NCBI GenBank assembly: GCA_012976225.1
Contig: JAAVVG010000012.1
Span: 682,001 to 746,000 of the forward strand
Length of the DNA: 64,000 bases
Direction: 5' to 3'
Origin: Golubevia sp. BC0850
Taxonomy: Eukaryota > Basidiomycota > Exobasidiomycetes > Golubeviales > Golubeviaceae
Made by a program: the position numbers and the translations under genes. The notes under the pieces were generated by a model that saw only the letters and a list, made by a program, of their open reading frames with translations, was not told where the DNA came from and searched no databases. Below are positions 1,450 through 43,216 of this stretch, piece by piece (positions within the stretch are counted from its first letter, which is position 1; the number at the start of each line of letters is the position of its first letter).

Positions 1450-2423
1450 CTAATAGTTCCAACTATTTCTTCTGACAGTGCAGAATCCTCTGACATAAGA
1501 TCTTCTAGTGCAACGACCATTACGGTATCTGCAAGCTCCAGCTCTGAAAGCTCTGAAGCTACACGAATCATCGTTCCAGTCCTCGTCATCATCCCAGTCG
1601 TCTCCATTCCCCCAATCATTGTCGTCGCCGTATCCATACCCATTTTCGTTCCCGTATTCATTGTTAGATCGGCCAGAACCAGAACCCCATCCATAGCCAT
1701 ACTTTCTAACGTTTGAAGCTTTGGTGTCTTTTGAATTGACTTTCTTATGGTCCTTTTGGGCTGCTTCATCTCTGGAGGAGAGGAATGGAATACCTGTGAA
1801 TGAAAGTGAAAAGAGTTTTTAGTCTTTTTCAAGGCATCTCGCATGAGGTAGGGAAGCTGCTCTCACTCACCGCCAGCGTTGCTCTTGCCTTCTCCGCCAC
1901 TCAAAGATCCTAGCAATGGTAATTTGTGGTTACCGCTCATCAAGGGTCTTCTCTTGAGTGGGAGAGAGCTTTTTAAATCACCAGCTAGAGGGAGGTCGTT
2001 CAAGCCGTCCATTAGAGGTTCCCTTTTGATTGGAAGAGAGCTCTTAAGATCGCTGACGAGGGGTAAACCGTCCATGCCATCGAGCAAAGGAGATCTCTTG
2101 ACTGGCAGAGCGCCTTTCAATTGGTCGACTAAGGGTAAGTCTCCTACTAGAGGTAGACTGGGAATTGACAACTGACCTGGTCAACGAATCAAGAACGAAT
2201 TGAAAGAGGAAAATAGGTCGACTCACCCAGCTACACCGTTAGGGTCTCTACATTTGAACGAAGACAGGGAAGATGAATCAGAGATCAAAGAAGACATGAA
2301 GGCCATCAACTGGATTAGATATACCCACAGATTAGACTTTGATTCTTGACCACCCATCAAGGGGGAAGGGGTCGCAACGACGACCGACACGAAAGTTAGG
2401 AGAGCGAGGTATTGAAACTTCAT
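1450..2423 (-). CDS. Secreted Kex2-processed repeat peptide precursor
   Basis: Three exons: 2423-2227, 2157-1871 and 1793-1450, with GTGAGT donors and CAG acceptors. The protein opens with a clear signal peptide (MKFQYLALLTFVSVVVATP). After a serine-rich spacer come tandem units of 24 residues, each closed by a dibasic Lys-Arg: the first ends LPVKR, the second LPIKR, the third LPLKR. Every unit carries LPL(V/A)(S/G)DLKSSLP or a close variant, and after each KR the next unit starts X-Pro (SP, EP, RP). The third exon gives a Lys-rich hinge, a Gly/Asn/Asp/Tyr-rich stretch (GYGWGSGSGRSNNEYGN) and a basic tail with four cysteines spaced C-x10-C-x6-C-x10-C. The architecture matches Kex2-processed repeat proteins, which release small secreted peptides after Golgi cleavage. 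The sequence itself matches nothing I recognise, and the peptide function is unknown. Confidence 0.75.
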
Positions 2424-3330
2424 TGTTGTTTTTTGAGATTCTAGAAAAGAGAGCGTATTTTGTTGACTACGACTTGTAGAGGGAAGGAGAGAAGGAAGCT
2501 ATGGGGGAATAGAAGAGTTGATATTCCCTCTCTTTTATACAGTTCGAGTCGACACCAAGGAGAATCTTTAGGGGTACTTCGGCAAGGTTCGAGAAATCGT
2601 AGGTCGTCAGGCTGGAGATACAGCTTCTTTAAGGATGAGATGGATTCGCTCGAAACTTAGAAGCTCCTATCACGAAAAGGGGTGAAGTCGCGGAGCGTGT
2701 TCGTCGTCAGGACCCAGAAGGTTTGAGCGTCTTGCCTTCCCACGGTCTTGGTCATTCCGTCGCATCTACGACCTATTCGATTCATTTTGAATGAGTACTT
2801 CTTAGAGAACAGGAATCTATCTTGGGGGCTATATGTCTATGGGTCGAAGGGGATGGCTCCCTCGAAGCTTTTTAACTTGGTAAGGTTCGATCTTCTAGGG
2901 GAAGAGCAACGACTGATGAATCGAAATAGAGAGTCAGGGAGTGAGGGGGATTGAAATTGAAAGCGGAGTGTAGTGGAGAGAACAAAAAGAGAAACGAAAC
3001 CGTTGGGTAGAAGTTGTATCCTGAAGGGGCAAGATCGAGGGATGAAGTAATGATTGCGAATTAGAGTTGCTTTGTAGTTGTGACTTGGAGCCGAGATGTT
3101 GAAGATTGGCAACTCACTATGCAAGTCAGTTCAAACAATCCCAGTGCTTATCGAAAATGTGTGGTTGAGAGAGAATTAGGAAGAAGAAGAAGAGGACAAT
3201 CGCGTGTGCACGAAGGGCACTCGGAAAATCCGCTTTTTAGTTGGCGTTTCTCGGCGACCCAATCTTTCGAGTTATTCTCTACTTTCCTTCTCTCCAGAAA
3301 CGTTCTCTCCTCAAGTCAAGTTCTATTGGA
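2424..3330. promoter_or_regulatory. Divergent intergenic region
   Basis: This region lies between the divergent starts of the peptide precursor (minus) and the desaturase (plus), so it should hold both promoters. No convincing coding exon was seen. Frames of 60-95 codons here lack splice signals or family resemblance. Confidence 0.4.
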
Positions 3331-5153
3331 ATGTTTGGATTCACTTCAACTTCCAGTGTAGATTGGTCTTACTACGGTGGAGCAGAACAGATAGCTCCAA
3401 CTTCAAGCTCAAAATCTTCAGCCTCCTCCTCAATCTCATCTTCATCTTCAACCTCACGATCTCGATCTCGATCTGATTCACCTGATTCACTAACAGATGA
3501 ATCATCAGTAGAACAACTCTTAACCTCAAACTCCTCTCCAGCCGGTCTTAGATGGGCTCCCAAATATCCAGCAACACCTCAAGACCCAACAGATTTCCTA
3601 TGGCTCTTAACAGAAGAACCTCACAGAACCAGAAGGATGGCAATCATAGCTGCTCATCCAGAAGTGAAATCTTTGATGGGTTTAGAGCCTCTAACGAAAT
3701 ACATCTCTTTCATGGTTACCTTGACTCAGATTCTGATTGCAGTCTATATGGGAGTTCATCAGATTCATCCTTTAGATTGGAGGTTTCTATTAACTGCTTA
3801 TGTTATTGGTGGTACTTTGAATCAGAACACCTTCTTGGCAATTCATGAGATTACTCATAATTTGGCGTTCAAAGGAATCAAAGCTAATAGGATTTGGGCT
3901 TGTGGTGTGAATTTGGCTATTGGAGTTCCTTATGCTATGATGTTCAAGGTTAGTATTGACATGAAAGAGAAGAGTGTACATGTGGAAGGGGGGACAATAG
4001 AACTAGAGAGAAGAGGGGAATGGGAGCAAGAAGTCGAACGAATCAGAGGAAGGAGTCCCTCATCTTCCAGAAGCTGACCATCTACCCCTCACTCCGTTTC
4101 CCCACTCTTTGAACGCTACGATCTCAAATCATTCAATCCCATCCTGCCAGCCATATCACATTGAGCATCACAAACATTTAGGAGAAGATGGAGTAGACAC
4201 TGATCTACCAACCAAGTTCGAATTAATGTGTTTAAAGAACGTTCTTGGAAAGGCTTTCTTTGCGTAGGTTTCTATTTTCTCCTTTCCCCCAATCTTTTCT
4301 TTTCGGTGCTTTCCTTCCTCCGCGAATCTCATCCTCACTCCTCCTGTCTCTTCTCCCCCATCTTCTCCTGTCTCTCCTGTCCCCTCCCTCTCCCTTCCCT
4401 CTCCCCTTCCTCAGCACATTTCAAATCTTCTTCTACGCTCTCCGCCCAGGTCTAATCAAAGCACAATCCCCAACCATCTGGCATTTCTTCAACATAACTC
4501 TTCAACTCTCTTTCAACTATCTCTTAGTTCGTAACTTTGGTTGGTTCCCAATCTTCTACCTCCTAGAATCAAGTTTCTTCGCAGGAAGTTTACATCCAAT
4601 GGCAGCTCATTTCATAGCTGAACATTATCTGTTCGGTGGAATCGAAATGGAAACTTGGAGTTATTACGGCGGCTTGAATTGGTTGGCTTATAATGTGAGT
4701 GGAAGCGATGAGTTTTGTCTCTCGAGTTGGCATGCTTATGCTTGATTACCTGGTTCAGTTGAGAATAACATCTGAAGTTGTTGGCATTCAATCTGCGTTC
4801 TGAATCTCTTTTGAGTTCGTTTACTGATTCTCAAATTCCTTCCCCTCCGTTTCTTCCCTTCTTTCCTCTCCGTCCTCCTCTCTCACGTCTAACAGGTTGG
4901 CTATCACAACGAACATCACGATTTCCCCTCAATTCCTTGGACCCGCCTTCCAGCTTTAAGGAAAATGGCTCCTGAATTTTATGATTGTTTACCTTCTCAT
5001 AAATCTTGGCCTTTGGTGACTTTACAATTCATCTTTGGTGAAGATGCTGGATTGTTTGGTAGGGTCAAGAGGAAAGGGAAGGGAGAGAAACGAAATCAAG
5101 AGAAAGATGAGGGAGTTAAGGAGGAAGTTGAATTGGGGTTGAAGGAAGAATAG
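3331..5153 (+). CDS. DES1: Sphingolipid delta-4 desaturase (dihydroceramide desaturase)
   Basis: Introduces the 4,5-trans double bond of dihydroceramide to give ceramide; an ER membrane di-iron enzyme. Four exons: 3331-3948, 4151-4263, 4415-4694 and 4896-5153, coding 422 residues. The three histidine boxes are complete: HEITHN from about residue 172, HIEHHKH from 209 and HNEHH from 341, with hydrophobic membrane stretches between them. WSYYGG occurs near the N-terminus and again in exon 3. Residues 20-70 form a serine-rich, probably disordered extension longer than in animal DES1, and the C-terminus is a Lys/Glu-rich tail. The start is the ATG giving MFGFTSTSSVDW; upstream in-frame codons carry no family similarity. 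LCB2, an earlier enzyme of the same pathway, lies about 35 kb away. Confidence 0.93.
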
Positions 5154-7422: not shown

Positions 7423-9563
7423 TCAAGCTTTACCAGCCCAGACAGCTTCGATTCCAGCCTTGATAGCAGGGTCGACTCTAGCGAAGACAGCTAACTGTCT
7501 TTGTTGAATTTCCTTAGACTTGCAACCTCCAAGATGTCCAGCTACGTTAGAAATGAATCTCTTCTTGGCACCATCGTCGAACACCTTGTTGAACAGGTCT
7601 CTGGGCTGCTCGAAGTCTAGATCGGTAACTTCAGAGAGGAAGTTCTCAATTTGAGAAGCTGCGTACTGCTCGTGAGCGATAGCGACAGTTGGTCTCTTGG
7701 AGTATTGAAGTGGTTGGATGGTAGATTGGTAATTTGGACGAGATCCTTGGTTTCCATTGACGCACATGGCACCATCTCTCTGGAAATTAGCAATTGGGAC
7801 TAGAGGAGCGTTGACTGGAATCTGTTGGTAGTTGACTCCGAGGCGGTGACGGTGAGTGTCTGGGTAGGAGAATAGACGAGATTGAAGAACTGGGTCGGCA
7901 GATGGCTCGATACCTGGAACTAAGTGAGATGGAGAGAAGGCGACCTGCTCGATCTCAGCGAAGTACTATGAAGGAGAGATGAGAAAATTCGAATGATTAG
8001 TCATCTGTCTCTTTGAGTGGCGAAACAGCATTCCGCATTCTTTCTTCCCAATTTCTTTCGATACTCACGTTCTCTGGGTTCCTGTTGAGGGTCATCTTTC
8101 CGACTGGGCGGAGTGGGTACTCATCATGAGGCCAAACCTTGGTTAGATCGAAGACCGAGTGCTTGAACTTCTCGGCTTGCTCTAGAGTCATGGTTTGAAC
8201 AGAGACGGTCCAAGATGGGAACTTGCCAGCCTCGATTTGTTCGAAAAGTTGTTGGTTGTGAATGTCTGGGTTCTCTCCAGCGATCTTGGTTCCTTCCTCT
8301 TGAGTGTAGAAGTCGGTTCCTTGATCGGAACGAACGTGGATTTGGACGTAGTTCCACTCTCCCTTGTCGTTGACGAACTTGAAAGTGTGTCCAGAGTATC
8401 CGTGTTGAAGATCATGTCTCTTTGGGATACCACGGTCTCCCATCAAGATCATGACTTGGTGGACAGATTCTGGGTTCTGGGAGAGATAGTCCCAGAACAT
8501 GTCGTTGTCCTTCAAGTGAGTTTGAGGATCACGCTTCTGAGTGTGAATGAAGTGTGGGAATTTTGCTGGGTCACGAACGAAGAAGACAGGAGTATTGTCT
8601 GAGAGGAAGAAAGGAAATGGAGAAGAGGAAGGCGAAGAAGATGTCAGCTTCAAGTCGCAGAGCGGGATCGCTCTTCCGCCCGGTTGAGGTAAACTGAAAA
8701 CTCACTGAAGACCCAGTCAAGGTTACCTTCCTCGGTTCTCATCTTGATGGAAAATCCACGAGGATCACGAGCAGTGTCTGGGGATCCAGATTCCTAATAT
8801 AGATGAACGTGCGAGAGAAGGATGAGAGGGTCAATGAGAGTTCAACAGTTGGCTGACTAATCTCTGACAGTCTGATTCAGTCATCGATTTGGGAGTTGTT
8901 CTTCCCTTTCCAACTGAACAGAGCCGTCTCTTCCGTTCTTCCTTCCACTGTTCGCCGACCGCGTGACCCCACCAGCTGCCAGCTTAATTCCACATTCCTT
9001 CCTTATCCAAATCTCAAGATACTCACACCACCGACAGTAGAGAATCTCATAGTGAGAGGAGTTTGCTTTCCTGGAGTGAAGAGTTTGGCACATGAAAGAT
9101 CAGAGATGTCATGAGTGGCCTCGAAGACTCCGTGAGCTCCTCCACCTTTGGCGTGGACGACACGCTCTGGAATTCTCTCCCGGTCGAAGTGAGCTAGAAG
9201 ATCCTGCGAGAGTGGAGGATAGTCAGGACAGGTAGATGGATTAGCTAAGTCAAGGGAGGACGATGAATGAAAGCGAAGAGCCCGGATTTTGGAAAGGAAG
9301 AAAGTCGGGGACTCACGATGTGGTGGAAGTCTTGTAGAAGTAGAGGACCTCCAACTGGCTTTCCTGAGTTACGAACTCTCTGTTGAAAGAAGATTGAGAT
9401 AAAGGAAAGGGTGAGTCAAGGAATGGAAGGCTATGGAAAGTGGTAGAAGGAAGGTTGAGCGAATACTAACTTGAGCAGAGTAAGGCTCAGTGAAAGGAGC
9501 TCCATTTGAAGTGGTGTAGTTAACCTGTTCGGCACCAGTGTTCCAGACAGCAGCAGAAGGCAT
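7423..9563 (-). CDS. Catalase, small-subunit haem type
   Basis: Dismutates hydrogen peroxide to water and oxygen. Six exons: 9563-9471, 9379-9317, 9203-9027, 8793-8706, 8598-8069 and 7965-7423, summing to 497 residues, the normal size of a clade-3 small-subunit catalase. The catalytic His is in [13 protein letters not shown] (about residue 69). The region [20 protein letters not shown] carries the family's NADPH/haem-side signature. The proximal haem ligand Tyr is in [14 protein letters not shown] (about 351). The C-terminus is VWAGKA, with no SKL-like peroxisomal signal, so a cytosolic location is likelier. The start is the ATG giving [21 protein letters not shown], which matches the family N-terminus. 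Codons here favour C-ending synonyms, as expected for a strongly expressed gene. Confidence 0.97.
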
Positions 9564-12214: not shown

Positions 12215-14394
12215 ATGACACTCAATAGATTCCTTAAAACAGCCACTTTAAATTCGACTAGATTCAATTCCTCAAAACTACTTCCTTCAGTTTCTTCTTT
12301 ACTTCCATCCATCAACTCAACCAGAACTTCCACTCCAACCTCTATTCGATCTTTCAGCATGTCTTCAAAACTTGAAATCCCAAATGATTTTGTAAGTTTT
12401 CAATCATACTTGACTACTTCTACCACTCAACAATCTCCCTCTCAGGCTCACGACATTCAATCCCATGACTCATCTTCTTTTCTTCTCCCCCTCTGTCTCT
12501 GCCCATTCAGAACAAAGTCCTTTACTCTCCACTCTCGGAAGCTGATCCAGAAGTTGCCAAAATCATCGAAGATGAAACATGGAGACAATTCTCTGGATTA
12601 GAATTGATCGCCTCTGAGAATTTGACTTCTTTGGCCACTATGGAAGCCAATGGCTCTATTCTCACCAACAAGTACTCTGAAGGTCTACCAGGCGCTAGAT
12701 ACTACGGTGGAAATGAGCACATTGACAAGTTGGAGAACCTTTGCAGAAAGAGAGCTCTAGAAGCTTTCGGTTTGGATGAGAAGATTTGGGGAGTCAATGT
12801 TCAACCTTACTCTGGTGAGTAGAAAGACTGGCAAGACAGCGAAAGGATTGGTGGAATCAAATTTGAAAGTTGTTGACGGGATTTCAAGGGGTACAAGAAG
12901 AGCTGGGAGAGCTGGACAGACCCAGAGCTAGAGAGAAGCAAGCGGAGGGATTACATGAGGCTGCTCTTGAGCTGCCATTTTTGTTCAAAGATAGCTCATG
13001 CTTCTTCTTTTCATCTTCCATTCATCTTGGAAATGCTTTCTACGAATCTTTTGAATCGACTTCTACAGGTTCAACTGCCAAGTGAGTTCCCGTAGGTTCG
13101 GCCTTCGCTTCCCACCTTCCTTCCTGACCTTCTCCCTCCTCCTATCATTTCTCCCTCAGCTTCGCAACTTTCACTGCTCTACTTCAACCACAAGACCGAA
13201 TCATGGGTCTTGGATTACCAGACGGAGGGCATCTAACTCATGGATACTACACCGCCAAGAAGAAGATTTCAGCATCTTCAATCTATTTCCAATCGTTCCC
13301 TTACCAAGTCAAGAAATCAGATGGACTTCTAGATTATGAGAAATTAACAGAGAATGCCAATCTTTTCAAGCCACGTATGATCATCTGTGGAGGTTCAGCT
13401 TATCCAAGAGATTGGGATTACAAGAAATTCGCCGAAATCGCTAAGGCTCATGGAGCTTACTTGATGTGCGATATGGCTCACATCTCTGGTTTAGTAGCTG
13501 CTAAAGTTCAAAACAACCCTTTCGAAGTTTGTGATATCGTTACTACTACTACTCATAAAACTTTGAGAGGTCCAAGAGCTGGTTTGATCTTCTTCAGAAA
13601 GGACAAGGATTCAGAAATTGAAGGAAGAGTCAATGCTGCTGTGTTCCCTGCTTGTCAGGGAGGTCCTCACAACAACGTGAGTACCGGAAAGGGTAGCGTG
13701 GAGTTGAAGAGAGAAGAAAAGATCTCACTCGAAATCTCACAGCTCGAATGTATGCCACTCATTCTTGCCTCTCCTTGCTTATTCCCTACTGATTTCGATC
13801 GATTTACCTTTCTTCTCTGCACCCCACCCTCAGACCATCGCCGGAATCGCTGTTGCCCTCAAGCAAGCCGCCGACCCGGCCTTCCAAGCCTACGCTTCTC
13901 AAGTCATCAAGAACTCCAGAGCCGTTGCTGCCAAGCTCAACTCTCACGGATACAAGCTTCAAACCGATGGATCTGACAACCATCTGGTTCTATGGGATCT
14001 CCGTCCTCTAGGTTTAACCGGATCAAAGATCGAAAAGATTTGTGATCTAGCTCACATCACAGTGAACAAGAACGCAGTTTCTGGAGATACTTCAGCTTTG
14101 GTTCCAGGAGGAGTCAGAGTTGGTCTTGGAGCTCTCACTTCAAGATCTATGTTCGAACCTGAAATGGAACAGGTCGGAGAATTCTTACACAGAGCTATTG
14201 AAATCGCTGGAATTTTACAGAAAGAAGCTGGAAGCAAGTTGTTGAAGGATTTCGTTAAGATGGCTACTGAAGGGAATGGTGAAGGTAGAAAAGCTATTGA
14301 ACAGTTGAAGAAAGACGTAGTTGCTTTCGCTACTAAATATCCTCTACCTGGTGTTCCGGATTCAAGCAAGATCGTTCGTCCTGCTGATGAGTAA
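12215..14394 (+). CDS. SHM: Serine hydroxymethyltransferase
   Basis: PLP enzyme that converts serine and tetrahydrofolate to glycine and 5,10-methylene-THF. Five exons: 12215-12391, 12511-12814, 13069-13081 (a 13-nt microexon), 13160-13676 and 13834-14394, giving 523 residues. The text is highly typical: [27 protein letters not shown], the PLP-lysine motif [12 protein letters not shown], and [14 protein letters not shown]. The first 48 residues are basic and rich in Ser/Thr/Asn with almost no acids, like a mitochondrial presequence. A second in-frame ATG at 12359 ([10 protein letters not shown]) would give a cytosolic-length protein. One gene may therefore make both forms by alternative starts. 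The microexon is required, because without it QPYSGSTANFATF cannot be read. Confidence 0.96.
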
Positions 14395-40327: not shown

Positions 40328-43216
40328 ATGCCATCTTTAAGATCTAAAAGAGATTCATCGATCGGATTGACTCCTGAGCCTGAATCTATATCATCTTCGT
40401 CCAATTCTTCACCATCTCTAGTCTCCAAGCTGACACCATCAAAATCAAAAAGGAATTCCTTCTTCTCAAGATCTTCTCCTTCACCATCACCTTCTCAAAC
40501 TAAAGCACTAGCACCAAAATCATCTTCATCTCCATCTCCATCGACAATCGTATCGAAAGCATTACCAACAGTAGAACTGAACGGTCAAGCTCATCCAGTT
40601 CAATCAAGAGAAGAAGCAGGTCAAACTGAAGTCTTCAGCGGATATGAATCAGCAAAGAGGGATTTGAATGGAATGAATGGATTGATATTGAACGGAAGTA
40701 AAAATGGTATTGTTCATTTAAACGGAAACGGAATCGGAAAGATGGAGGAAGGGGAGAGTCCACCAACTTCTCTACCACCAAGCATGACAACTGGTTCAAC
40801 CTCAACGTCAGCTTCAATAGAATCCTTAGAGTCTATCAAGAACTCAAATGACAAGACTTTACGAATGAAGATTTCAAGATCTTTGGCTTCAAATGAAAAG
40901 GAAGCATTACTTCAACCTGTAGCTCAGACCATTCCTCCTCCAACTTCTCATTTCTCTTCTTCAGATGGAACCGCTCTGTTACATGAAGAATTCGGTTATT
41001 GCTCAAATGAATCCTACAGATATACTTCTGAACACAGATTGGGAGATTCTTTACCAAGTCCAATCGAAGAAGAACCTTCTTATTTCATAGTTCTATCCAC
41101 TTACATTTCCTATCTGATTTTGATAGTCATAGGACATATGCGTGATTTCTTCGGAAAGCGTTTGTTTCCTGCTTCCTATCATCATCTAGTTGAAACCAAC
41201 GGTTACGCTGCTTTGAACAGTGACTTCGATTCTTTCTACACTAGGTGCGTCGACTTTGAGTAAAACGCAGAATGTCGTGTCCCCTCGCCTCTTCTCCTCT
41301 CTGACCTACCCTCCTCTTTCTTGGTGATGCCTTTTTAGACGATTGAAGGCAAGGTTAGATGATTGTTTTTCCCGTCCTGTGACTGGAGTCTGTGGAAGAA
41401 CTGTGATGACTCTAGATAGAACTTCAGACGATTATTTTGAATCCTTCAAATTGACTGGTCAAAAGACCAGAGTTTTGAACGTCAGCGCTTATAATTACCT
41501 AGGTTTCGCTCAATCTCATGGAGGTTGTGCTGATTCTGTCGAAACTGCTATTCAGAAGTATGGAGTCTCAAGCTTTTCATCAAGACTCGGAGTGGGATCT
41601 CTAGATTTACATCATCAAGCTGAAAAATTAGTAGCCAAGTTCTTAGGAAAAGAAGATGCTGTGATTATTTCTATGGGATTTGCTACTAATTCTACTACCA
41701 TTCCTGTTCTCTCTGGTCCTGGAACTTTATTGATCTCTGATGAATACAATCATTCGAGTTTGAGATTCGGTGCTAGATTATCTGGAGCTAGTATTAGACA
41801 GTTTAAGCATAATGATATGAATGAGTTGGAGAATTTGTTGAAGGAATGTATTTCTCAAGGAATGCCAAGGACCCATAGACCTTGGAAGAAGATTTTGTTG
41901 CTGGTGGAAGGTCTTTATAGTATGGAGGGAACTTTGGTCAATCTTCCAGAAGTGATGAGGTTGAAGGAGAAGTATAAGGTAAGTTTGAAGAGACAAATGC
42001 GTGGCTAAACACCATAAGAGGGCGCAGCAAGGCTCGAAAGACCCGAAGAAAGAACTGAAGAGAGGAAGCGGAGAGAGGTCAAAGTTCGGTCGGCGAGGGG
42101 AAGAAGTCAAGCCATCTTAGGCCTTCGATTCTACCTAACTTTGAGTCATCTCGCTGACATCATCCCCCGACGTTTTTTCCCGCACAGTTCTATCTCTACG
42201 TCGACGAAGCTCATTCCATCGGAGCAATTGGAAGAAGAGGTCGTGGAGTGTGCGATTACTTCGGAATCGACCCATCGAAAATCGACATTCTGATGGGAAC
42301 CTTCACCAAGTCTTTCGGAGCTGCTGGAGGTTACATTTCTGGATCCAAAGTTCTAATGGATCGTATTCGTCTAGAGAATCACGCCAACGTTTATGGAGAA
42401 ACCCTTGCACCACCAGTCTTAACTCAGATCATCTCCTCGATGTCGTCGATCATGGGAGTCGGAAACGATCCCGCTGAGACTGCTCTTCTCCCTCCTTGGA
42501 TCAAGTTGCCTCAGAATCTGCTAGACGGAAGTCAAGGGAAGGACAGATTAAGAAGATTAGCTTTCAATTCTAGGTATTTGAGTAGCGGCTTGAGGAAATT
42601 GGGATTTATCGTTTATGGCCACCGGGATTCCCCTATCGTTCCTCTCCTTATCTTCAACCCAGCTAAAAGTGAGTGGAAGCATCCTGATTCAACCAATTGT
42701 CGCTTCAGAAGGTTCAAGAAGCGAACGTTCAAGAAGCTCGATCTCGGGAAGACTTGTTTGTTGACAACCCCCTCCCCCCCTTCACGTCTTCTCTAAACAG
42801 TGCCCATGTTCAGTAGAATGATGCTAGATCGTCAATCCTCTTTACCGCCTCATGAACGTAGAGCCCTCAAGATCACTTCTACGTCCTCCGAAGAAGAACT
42901 CTCAGAGCAAGAGAAGGAGGCGATGGCCCTAGAGACCAAGACTCTCTCCGATCCTTCTTCCGATCGAATCAATAACATTGCGACAGTAGTGGTAGCCTAC
43001 CCAGCCACCCCATTGATCAGTTCTAGGGTGCGCTTCTGCTGTTCGGCTAGTCACACGAAGGCAGACATAGATGAAGTACTGAGCGCAGTCGACGAGGTTG
43101 GTGGGCTCTTAGACCTTAAACTTGGAGATGGTGGGCCTGGTGGAAGGTGGAATCTAGAAAAGGTCATTGAGAATGCAGTCCAATTGGTTCATTGGAATGG
43201 AGAGGACATTATCTGA
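40328..43216 (+). CDS. LCB2: Serine palmitoyltransferase subunit 2
   Basis: PLP-dependent subunit that condenses serine with palmitoyl-CoA, the first step of sphingolipid synthesis, in the ER. Four exons: 40328-41244, 41339-41978, 42188-42668 and 42801-43216, coding 817 residues. Core text: [38 protein letters not shown], the [20 protein letters not shown] block, and the PLP-lysine motif [17 protein letters not shown] membrane segment ([19 protein letters not shown]) lies near residue 265. The first ~240 residues are a Ser/Pro/Asn-rich extension, so the protein is clearly longer than the ~560-residue yeast Lcb2. A Ser/Glu-rich insert follows MPMFSRMML near the C-terminus. LCB1 is not in the window. 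Confidence 0.95.

Follow-up and report, generated by a model that had tools for sequence, protein, structure and literature searches.

The minus strand of a window of 64,000 nucleotides of Golubevia sp. BC0850 DNA carries reading frames that raise the question of whether they form one gene for a secreted precursor that Kex2 cuts into related peptides, and of what such peptides would do. The answer proposed here, to which a probability of roughly 0.75 is assigned, is that the locus is a basidiomycete gene for a Kex2-processed repeat protein (KEP), from a fungus related to Ustilaginomycotina, with extracellular peptide signalling as the most likely role.

Gene model and neighbouring genes

The peptide gene lies on the minus strand with its ATG at 2423-2421 and its stop at 1452-1450, where the initial annotation had placed the coding span (1450..2423), and the reading frame is uninterrupted across the two introns that the annotation had proposed (2226-2158 and 1870-1794), both of which have consensus ends. 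Both introns open with GTGAGT, the most frequent donor of the gene model (108 of 280 introns). The features of the locus are:

2532..2539, minus strand: TATA-box-like TATAAAAG, some 110 nt before the ATG, with a putative promoter role
2373..2423, minus strand: ATG and signal-peptide-like hydrophobic start MKFQYLALLTFVSVVVA, from hydropathy, with cleavage predicted by eye between VVA and TP
2331..2372, minus strand: predicted mature N-terminus TPSPLMGGQESKSN, X-Pro dipeptides first, then LMGG, resembling later units
2248..2328, minus strand: possible extra in-frame intron or coding stretch, GTGGGT...TGTAG, 81 nt
2158..2226, minus strand: intron, GTGAGT...CCCAG, 69 nt
2094..2156, minus strand: unit 1, LPLVGDLPLVDQLKGALPVKR, with a diverged core and KR at its end
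2022..2093, minus strand: unit 2, SPLLDGMDGLPLVSDLKSSLPIKR, with KR at its end
1950..2021, minus strand: unit 3, EPLMDGLNDLPLAGDLKSSLPLKR, with KR at its end
1902..1949, minus strand: degenerate unit 4, RPLMSGNHKLPLLGSL, ending without KR
1794..1870, minus strand: intron, GTGAGT...CACAG, 77 nt, to which the gene finder variant 1866-1772 is nearly equal in score
1567..1665, minus strand: acidic stretch rich in Asn, Asp, Gly, Tyr and Trp, net charge -14 over 33 residues
1453..1566, minus strand: Arg-rich C-terminal tail, 38 residues with a net charge of +10, four Cys and two RR pairs

When trained on 238 kb of this contig from which the peptide locus had been excluded, a gene finder calls a gene here that has the intron 2226-2158 and the near variant 1866-1772 of the second intron, and starts it at the internal ATG 2357, within the first exon of the initial annotation, not at 2423. 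The stretch 2328-2248 may be a third intron. It contains no stop, is T-rich (34 of 81 nt) and has a coding score of -1.3 over 28 codons, slightly under background; its acceptor is weak (2nd percentile), 31 pseudo-introns in frame score at least as high among 107,307 exonic nt, and the gene model favours its retention as coding by 3.1 nats. The three-intron model has no support from the gene finder, which retains the 81-nt N-terminal stretch and uses the internal ATG. The repeat is the same whether 2328-2248 is intron or coding, and all three KR-ended stretches lie in exon 2 (2157-1871), so the repeat is independent of splicing.

A sphingolipid delta-4 desaturase gene (window 3331-5153; four exons in the manual model, five according to the gene finder) and the peptide gene are divergently transcribed, with their ATGs about 900 bases apart, so the two genes may share an intergenic promoter region. 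By eye, the same window as this sphingolipid desaturase also holds an LCB2 (serine palmitoyltransferase subunit)-like gene (40328-43216), a catalase-like gene (7423-9563) and a serine hydroxymethyltransferase-like gene (12215-14394).

Constraint on the repeat units

The initial annotation described three tandem units of about 24 residues, each ending in Lys-Arg and sharing the core LPL(V/A)(S/G)DLKSSLP. Three KR sites are indeed present, terminating ..LPLVDQLKGALPVKR, SPLLDGMDGLPLVSDLKSSLPIKR and EPLMDGLNDLPLAGDLKSSLPLKR, but the core and the 24-residue length belong to units 2 and 3 only. Unit 1, aligned over 15 residues, is identical to unit 2 at 10 and to unit 3 at 9 of them; unit 4 is identical to unit 2 at 7 of 16 residues and to unit 3 at 9 of 16. 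Units 2 and 3 retain 16 of 24 residues and the KR, and differ at 27 of 72 bases (9, 3 and 15 at the first, second and third codon positions; pS 0.87, pN 0.22). Neutral simulations (n = 5000) applied an equal number of random changes with stops disallowed; none retained at least 16 of 24 residues between units 2 and 3 (0/5000; mean 8.6), and KR was retained in 11-14% per unit pair (about 11% for units 2 and 3). The observed identity of unit 1 to unit 2 was matched in 31 of 5000 simulations, and that of unit 1 to unit 3, which is weakly above the neutral null, in 233 of 5000.

Two further comparisons concern the same units. Within the 120 residues that begin at residue 19, the best 24-residue self-match has 17 identities, and none of 1000 shuffles reached this value. 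All six frames of 238,432 nt were scanned (1417 frames of at least 60 aa between stops), which yielded 735 adjacent pairs of fragments bounded by KR, RR or KK, 8-60 residues each, among which units 2 and 3 were the sole pair with at least 45% identity (64% identical); the pairs of units 1 and 2 and of units 3 and 4 fell under this whole-fragment threshold, and three shuffled six-frame scans produced no pair at or above it. Units 2 and 3 are thus duplicates of some age that protein-level selection, KR included, has kept alike. Their comparison is a within-gene stand-in for a test of KR conservation in homologues, and no substitute for it.

That chance open frames were simply joined into a gene model, a reading with which the absence of homologues in protein searches would agree, is very improbable given the bias of unit divergence to third positions, the consensus introns in frame, and the coding scores of exon 2 (8.8) and exon 3 (13.9), both positive under the model trained without the locus. 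The peptide gene is real and is probably a functional KEP gene.

Predicted processing sites and candidate enzymes

The candidate enzyme for cleavage at KR is encoded by a Kex2-like gene that matches Peptidase_S8 (E 9.9e-40) and the P-domain (5.3e-16) in profile searches; a hydrophobic segment as well as an acidic tail can be seen by eye in the following frame. The organism thus encodes a Kex2-like protease, a subtilase with a P domain, as a KEP demands. One locus that matches DPPIV_N/Peptidase_S9 at family level is DPP-IV/Ste13-like, and the frame upstream of it holds a hydrophobic segment. The serine carboxypeptidases (Peptidase_S10) gave 19 matches over several contigs, assigned by family and not to Kex1. 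The identification of the locus as a Kex2-type repeat precursor is upheld by the inter-unit protein conservation, the KR on the three main units and the Kex2-like enzyme of the genome. A secreted wall or matrix protein that stays uncut, its KR pairs being incidental, would account for the small number of repeats and for the Gly/Tyr/Asp-rich stretch of the precursor, a composition typical of matrix proteins; this is improbable, since the KR register is identical in the three main units despite differing codons (AAGAGA, AAAAGG, AAGAGA) and the genome encodes the Kex2-like gene.

Each of the three KR sites is followed by X-Pro (SP, EP, RP), a weak signature at one dipeptide each. The units start with X-Pro-Leu-(Leu/Met) (SPLL, EPLM, RPLM), the predicted mature N-terminus has TPSPLM likewise, and the remaining dibasic pairs (KK 151, RK 164, RR 231, RR 242) have no X-Pro behind them. 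The preferred targets of Ste13 are described as X-Pro and X-Ala following Kex2 sites, and KEPs with this signature are argued, in the relevant passages of the same survey, to be good peptide hormone candidates (Le Marquer, PMC6339444). As X-Pro occurs once per unit, the Pro may belong to the peptide and not to a spacer.

We infer the expression and secretion of the precursor, every cleavage and the role of its products. The proposed signal peptide corresponds to a hydropathy peak of 2.76 at residues 6-17, and is a signal-peptide-like start by hydropathy alone. It would take the precursor into the secretory pathway, where Kex2 would cleave behind the three LP(V/I/L)KR sites, after which K and R would be stripped by a Kex1-type carboxypeptidase to leave SPLLDGMDGLPLVSDLKSSLPI and EPLMDGLNDLPLAGDLKSSLPL. 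A Ste13-type dipeptidyl peptidase may then trim the X-Pro dipeptides (SP, EP and RP, plus TP/SP at the mature N-terminus). The predicted result is two related anionic, Leu/Pro-rich peptides of 20-22 residues, (SP)LLDGMDGLPLVSDLKSSLPI and (EP)LMDGLNDLPLAGDLKSSLPL, accompanied by two fragments, an N-terminal one that has the diverged copy and a C-terminal one that comprises the acidic spacer and the cationic four-Cys tail. The peptides would likely signal extracellularly, on the fungus itself or on its neighbours.

The four-Cys tail

Family searches (Pfam, NCBIfam) gave no match for the four-Cys tail. A single-sequence structure model of the exon-3 product contains four short low-confidence strands and has a mean pLDDT of 52, which makes it unfit for a fold search. 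It is conceivable, though unlikely, that the repeat serves as a pro-region or in a structural capacity, and that the cationic four-Cys domain is what acts, as an antimicrobial or killer-like product that Kex2 releases and the acidic stretch inhibits. The charges of -14 in the spacer and +10 in the tail, side by side, and the combination of four Cys with a four-strand model, at that low confidence, are consistent with such a product, and copsin of Coprinopsis is reportedly Kex2-cleaved when produced in Pichia pastoris (PMC9769878). However, the tail has no KR immediately before it, the nearest upstream pairs being KK 151 and RK 164, and two RR lie within it; a mere pro-region would not need the strong constraint on the repeat units; and the family searches returned nothing beyond Defensin_1 at E 4.6, which is noise.

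Relatives and novelty

Protein searches that covered 2230 and 1083 word-sharing candidates returned 0 homologues at E <= 10. Pfam gave no match for the precursor, NCBIfam gave noise only, PDB gave no match to the precursor, and RNA-family and tRNA searches gave nothing useful. A search of the same genome for paralogues at E <= 10 found the exons of the gene itself and one other match (C22, E 0.086, 29%), which was rejected as a paralogue, since it lies in an acidic part of a frame of 1485 residues that lacks the repeat.

With the neighbouring sphingolipid delta-4 desaturase as a control query, 4090 matches were obtained at E <= 0.001, of which 120 were listed. The best-scoring match has 66% identity over 95%, and the highest identity among the matches listed is 76% over 67%. 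The top named matches among those listed include Tilletiaria, Acaromyces, Jaminaea, Tilletia horrida and Exobasidium at 62-71% identity; a named match from a fern record, at 61% identity, is taken for contamination. These matches suggest that the fungus belongs in or next to Ustilaginomycotina. A database with related but no close fungi makes the failure to find a homologue an expected result, of little weight, for a short, fast-evolving gene. The description of the precursor in the initial annotation as undescribed and of new sequence agrees with the absence of protein, Pfam, NCBIfam and PDB matches, but has to be tempered, since the lineage is without a close database relative and the supplementary tables of KEP surveys may list the gene. 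As summarized in one such survey, 7878 KEPs were found in 1345 of 1461 strains and 2560 of them were without homologues (Umemura 2020, PMC7329392); an orphan KEP is thus of an ordinary kind.

Comparison with known systems

The methods of one survey require of a KEP three or more similar fragments with KR, RR or KK between them (Le Marquer 2019, PMC6339444). Here two fragments are 64% identical, and the third has a 15-residue core at 60-67% and less than 45% identity over the whole fragment. The same survey describes Ste13-marked KEPs in Basidiomycota (PMC6339444), and, according to another report, basidiomycetes process alpha-pheromone-like KEP precursors into peptides, while six Coprinopsis KEP knock-outs had no apparent phenotype (Vogt 2022, PMC9769878). 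The precursor shares with the basidiomycete Ste13-signature KEPs a signal-peptide-like start, KR-separated repeats, X-Pro after each KR, and predicted peptides in the 9-24 residue class, but its peptide sequence is its own, just two of its units are clean, each unit has a single X-Pro as against a run, and the C-terminal part with the acidic stretch and four Cys is additional.

The ascomycete alpha-factor precursors have the same Kex2/Kex1/Ste13-like layout. The differences are that the precursor here has no Pfam match, and that STE3 was matched in the genome but STE2 was not, the control genomes likewise giving no STE2 match. The STE3-type receptor, of the mating-receptor family expected in basidiomycetes, is represented by one locus (C62:362016-363056; L036, L037). 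Ustiloxin-type RiPP precursors also have a signal peptide and Kex2-separated repeats, but both predicted peptides here are without Tyr, and UstYa/DUF3328 had no match in this genome, nor in the control genomes. Ece1, the precursor of candidalysin, is a secreted Kex2-cut multi-peptide precursor, which the present one resembles in general layout; here the peptides are anionic and their hydrophobic moment is not above that of shuffles.

Rep1, Hum3 and Rsp1 of Ustilago maydis, a related lineage, are likewise Kex2-separated repeat proteins, and the repeats of Rsp1 are described as similarly long (18 or 21 residues), but the repeat numbers given for the three, 12, 17 and 11, exceed the number here (PMC4617103). 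A further candidate role, tentative at best, is that of a surface-active repellent, like Rep1 or the repeats of Hum3, in which the peptides would self-assemble on the wall of the hypha, which the cationic Cys tail would anchor or cover. The fungus stands near Ustilaginomycotina, the home of Rep1 and Hum3, the predicted peptides are rich in Leu, and a Cys-rich domain, in its case a hydrophobin, is likewise described as joined to the Kex2 repeats of Hum3 (PMC4617103). Against this, Rep1 is given as twelve repeats of 34-55 residues, as opposed to three KR-ended units of 15-24 residues (PMC4617103), so that the set of about twelve amphipathic 34-55 residue repeats that marks a Rep1 repellent is lacking. 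The units of Rep1 and Hum3 are longer and amphipathic, whereas those here are shorter, and the hydrophobic moments of three peptides at 100 and 165 degrees are not above those of shuffles. The tail with its four Cys has no Pfam hydrophobin match, and no hydrophobin domain of the Hum3 type was found behind the repeats. X-Pro follows 3 of 3 KR sites here, whereas Rep1 and the precursors of cyclic toxins reportedly lack the X-Pro/X-Ala signature (PMC6339444). The analogues suggested by the initial annotation are thus apt in their KEP layout, and less so in that Rep1 reportedly lacks X-Pro and no hydrophobic moment rises above shuffles.

The X-Pro starts, the few repeats and the hydrophobic moments that do not exceed those of shuffles speak for a signal more than for a repellent, and the nearest working analogue of the extracellular peptide signal is an alpha-factor-like basidiomycete KEP and not a repellent. 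The gene supplies two concrete peptide sequences that pass an internal conservation test, which makes it a simple target for mass spectrometry. A more specific and rather speculative form of the proposal is that an alpha-factor-like (Kex2, Kex1, Ste13) hormone system exists in an STE3-bearing Ustilaginomycotina lineage, together with a separate cationic four-Cys protein from the same precursor. If this were true, a single gene would yield two kinds of extracellular product.
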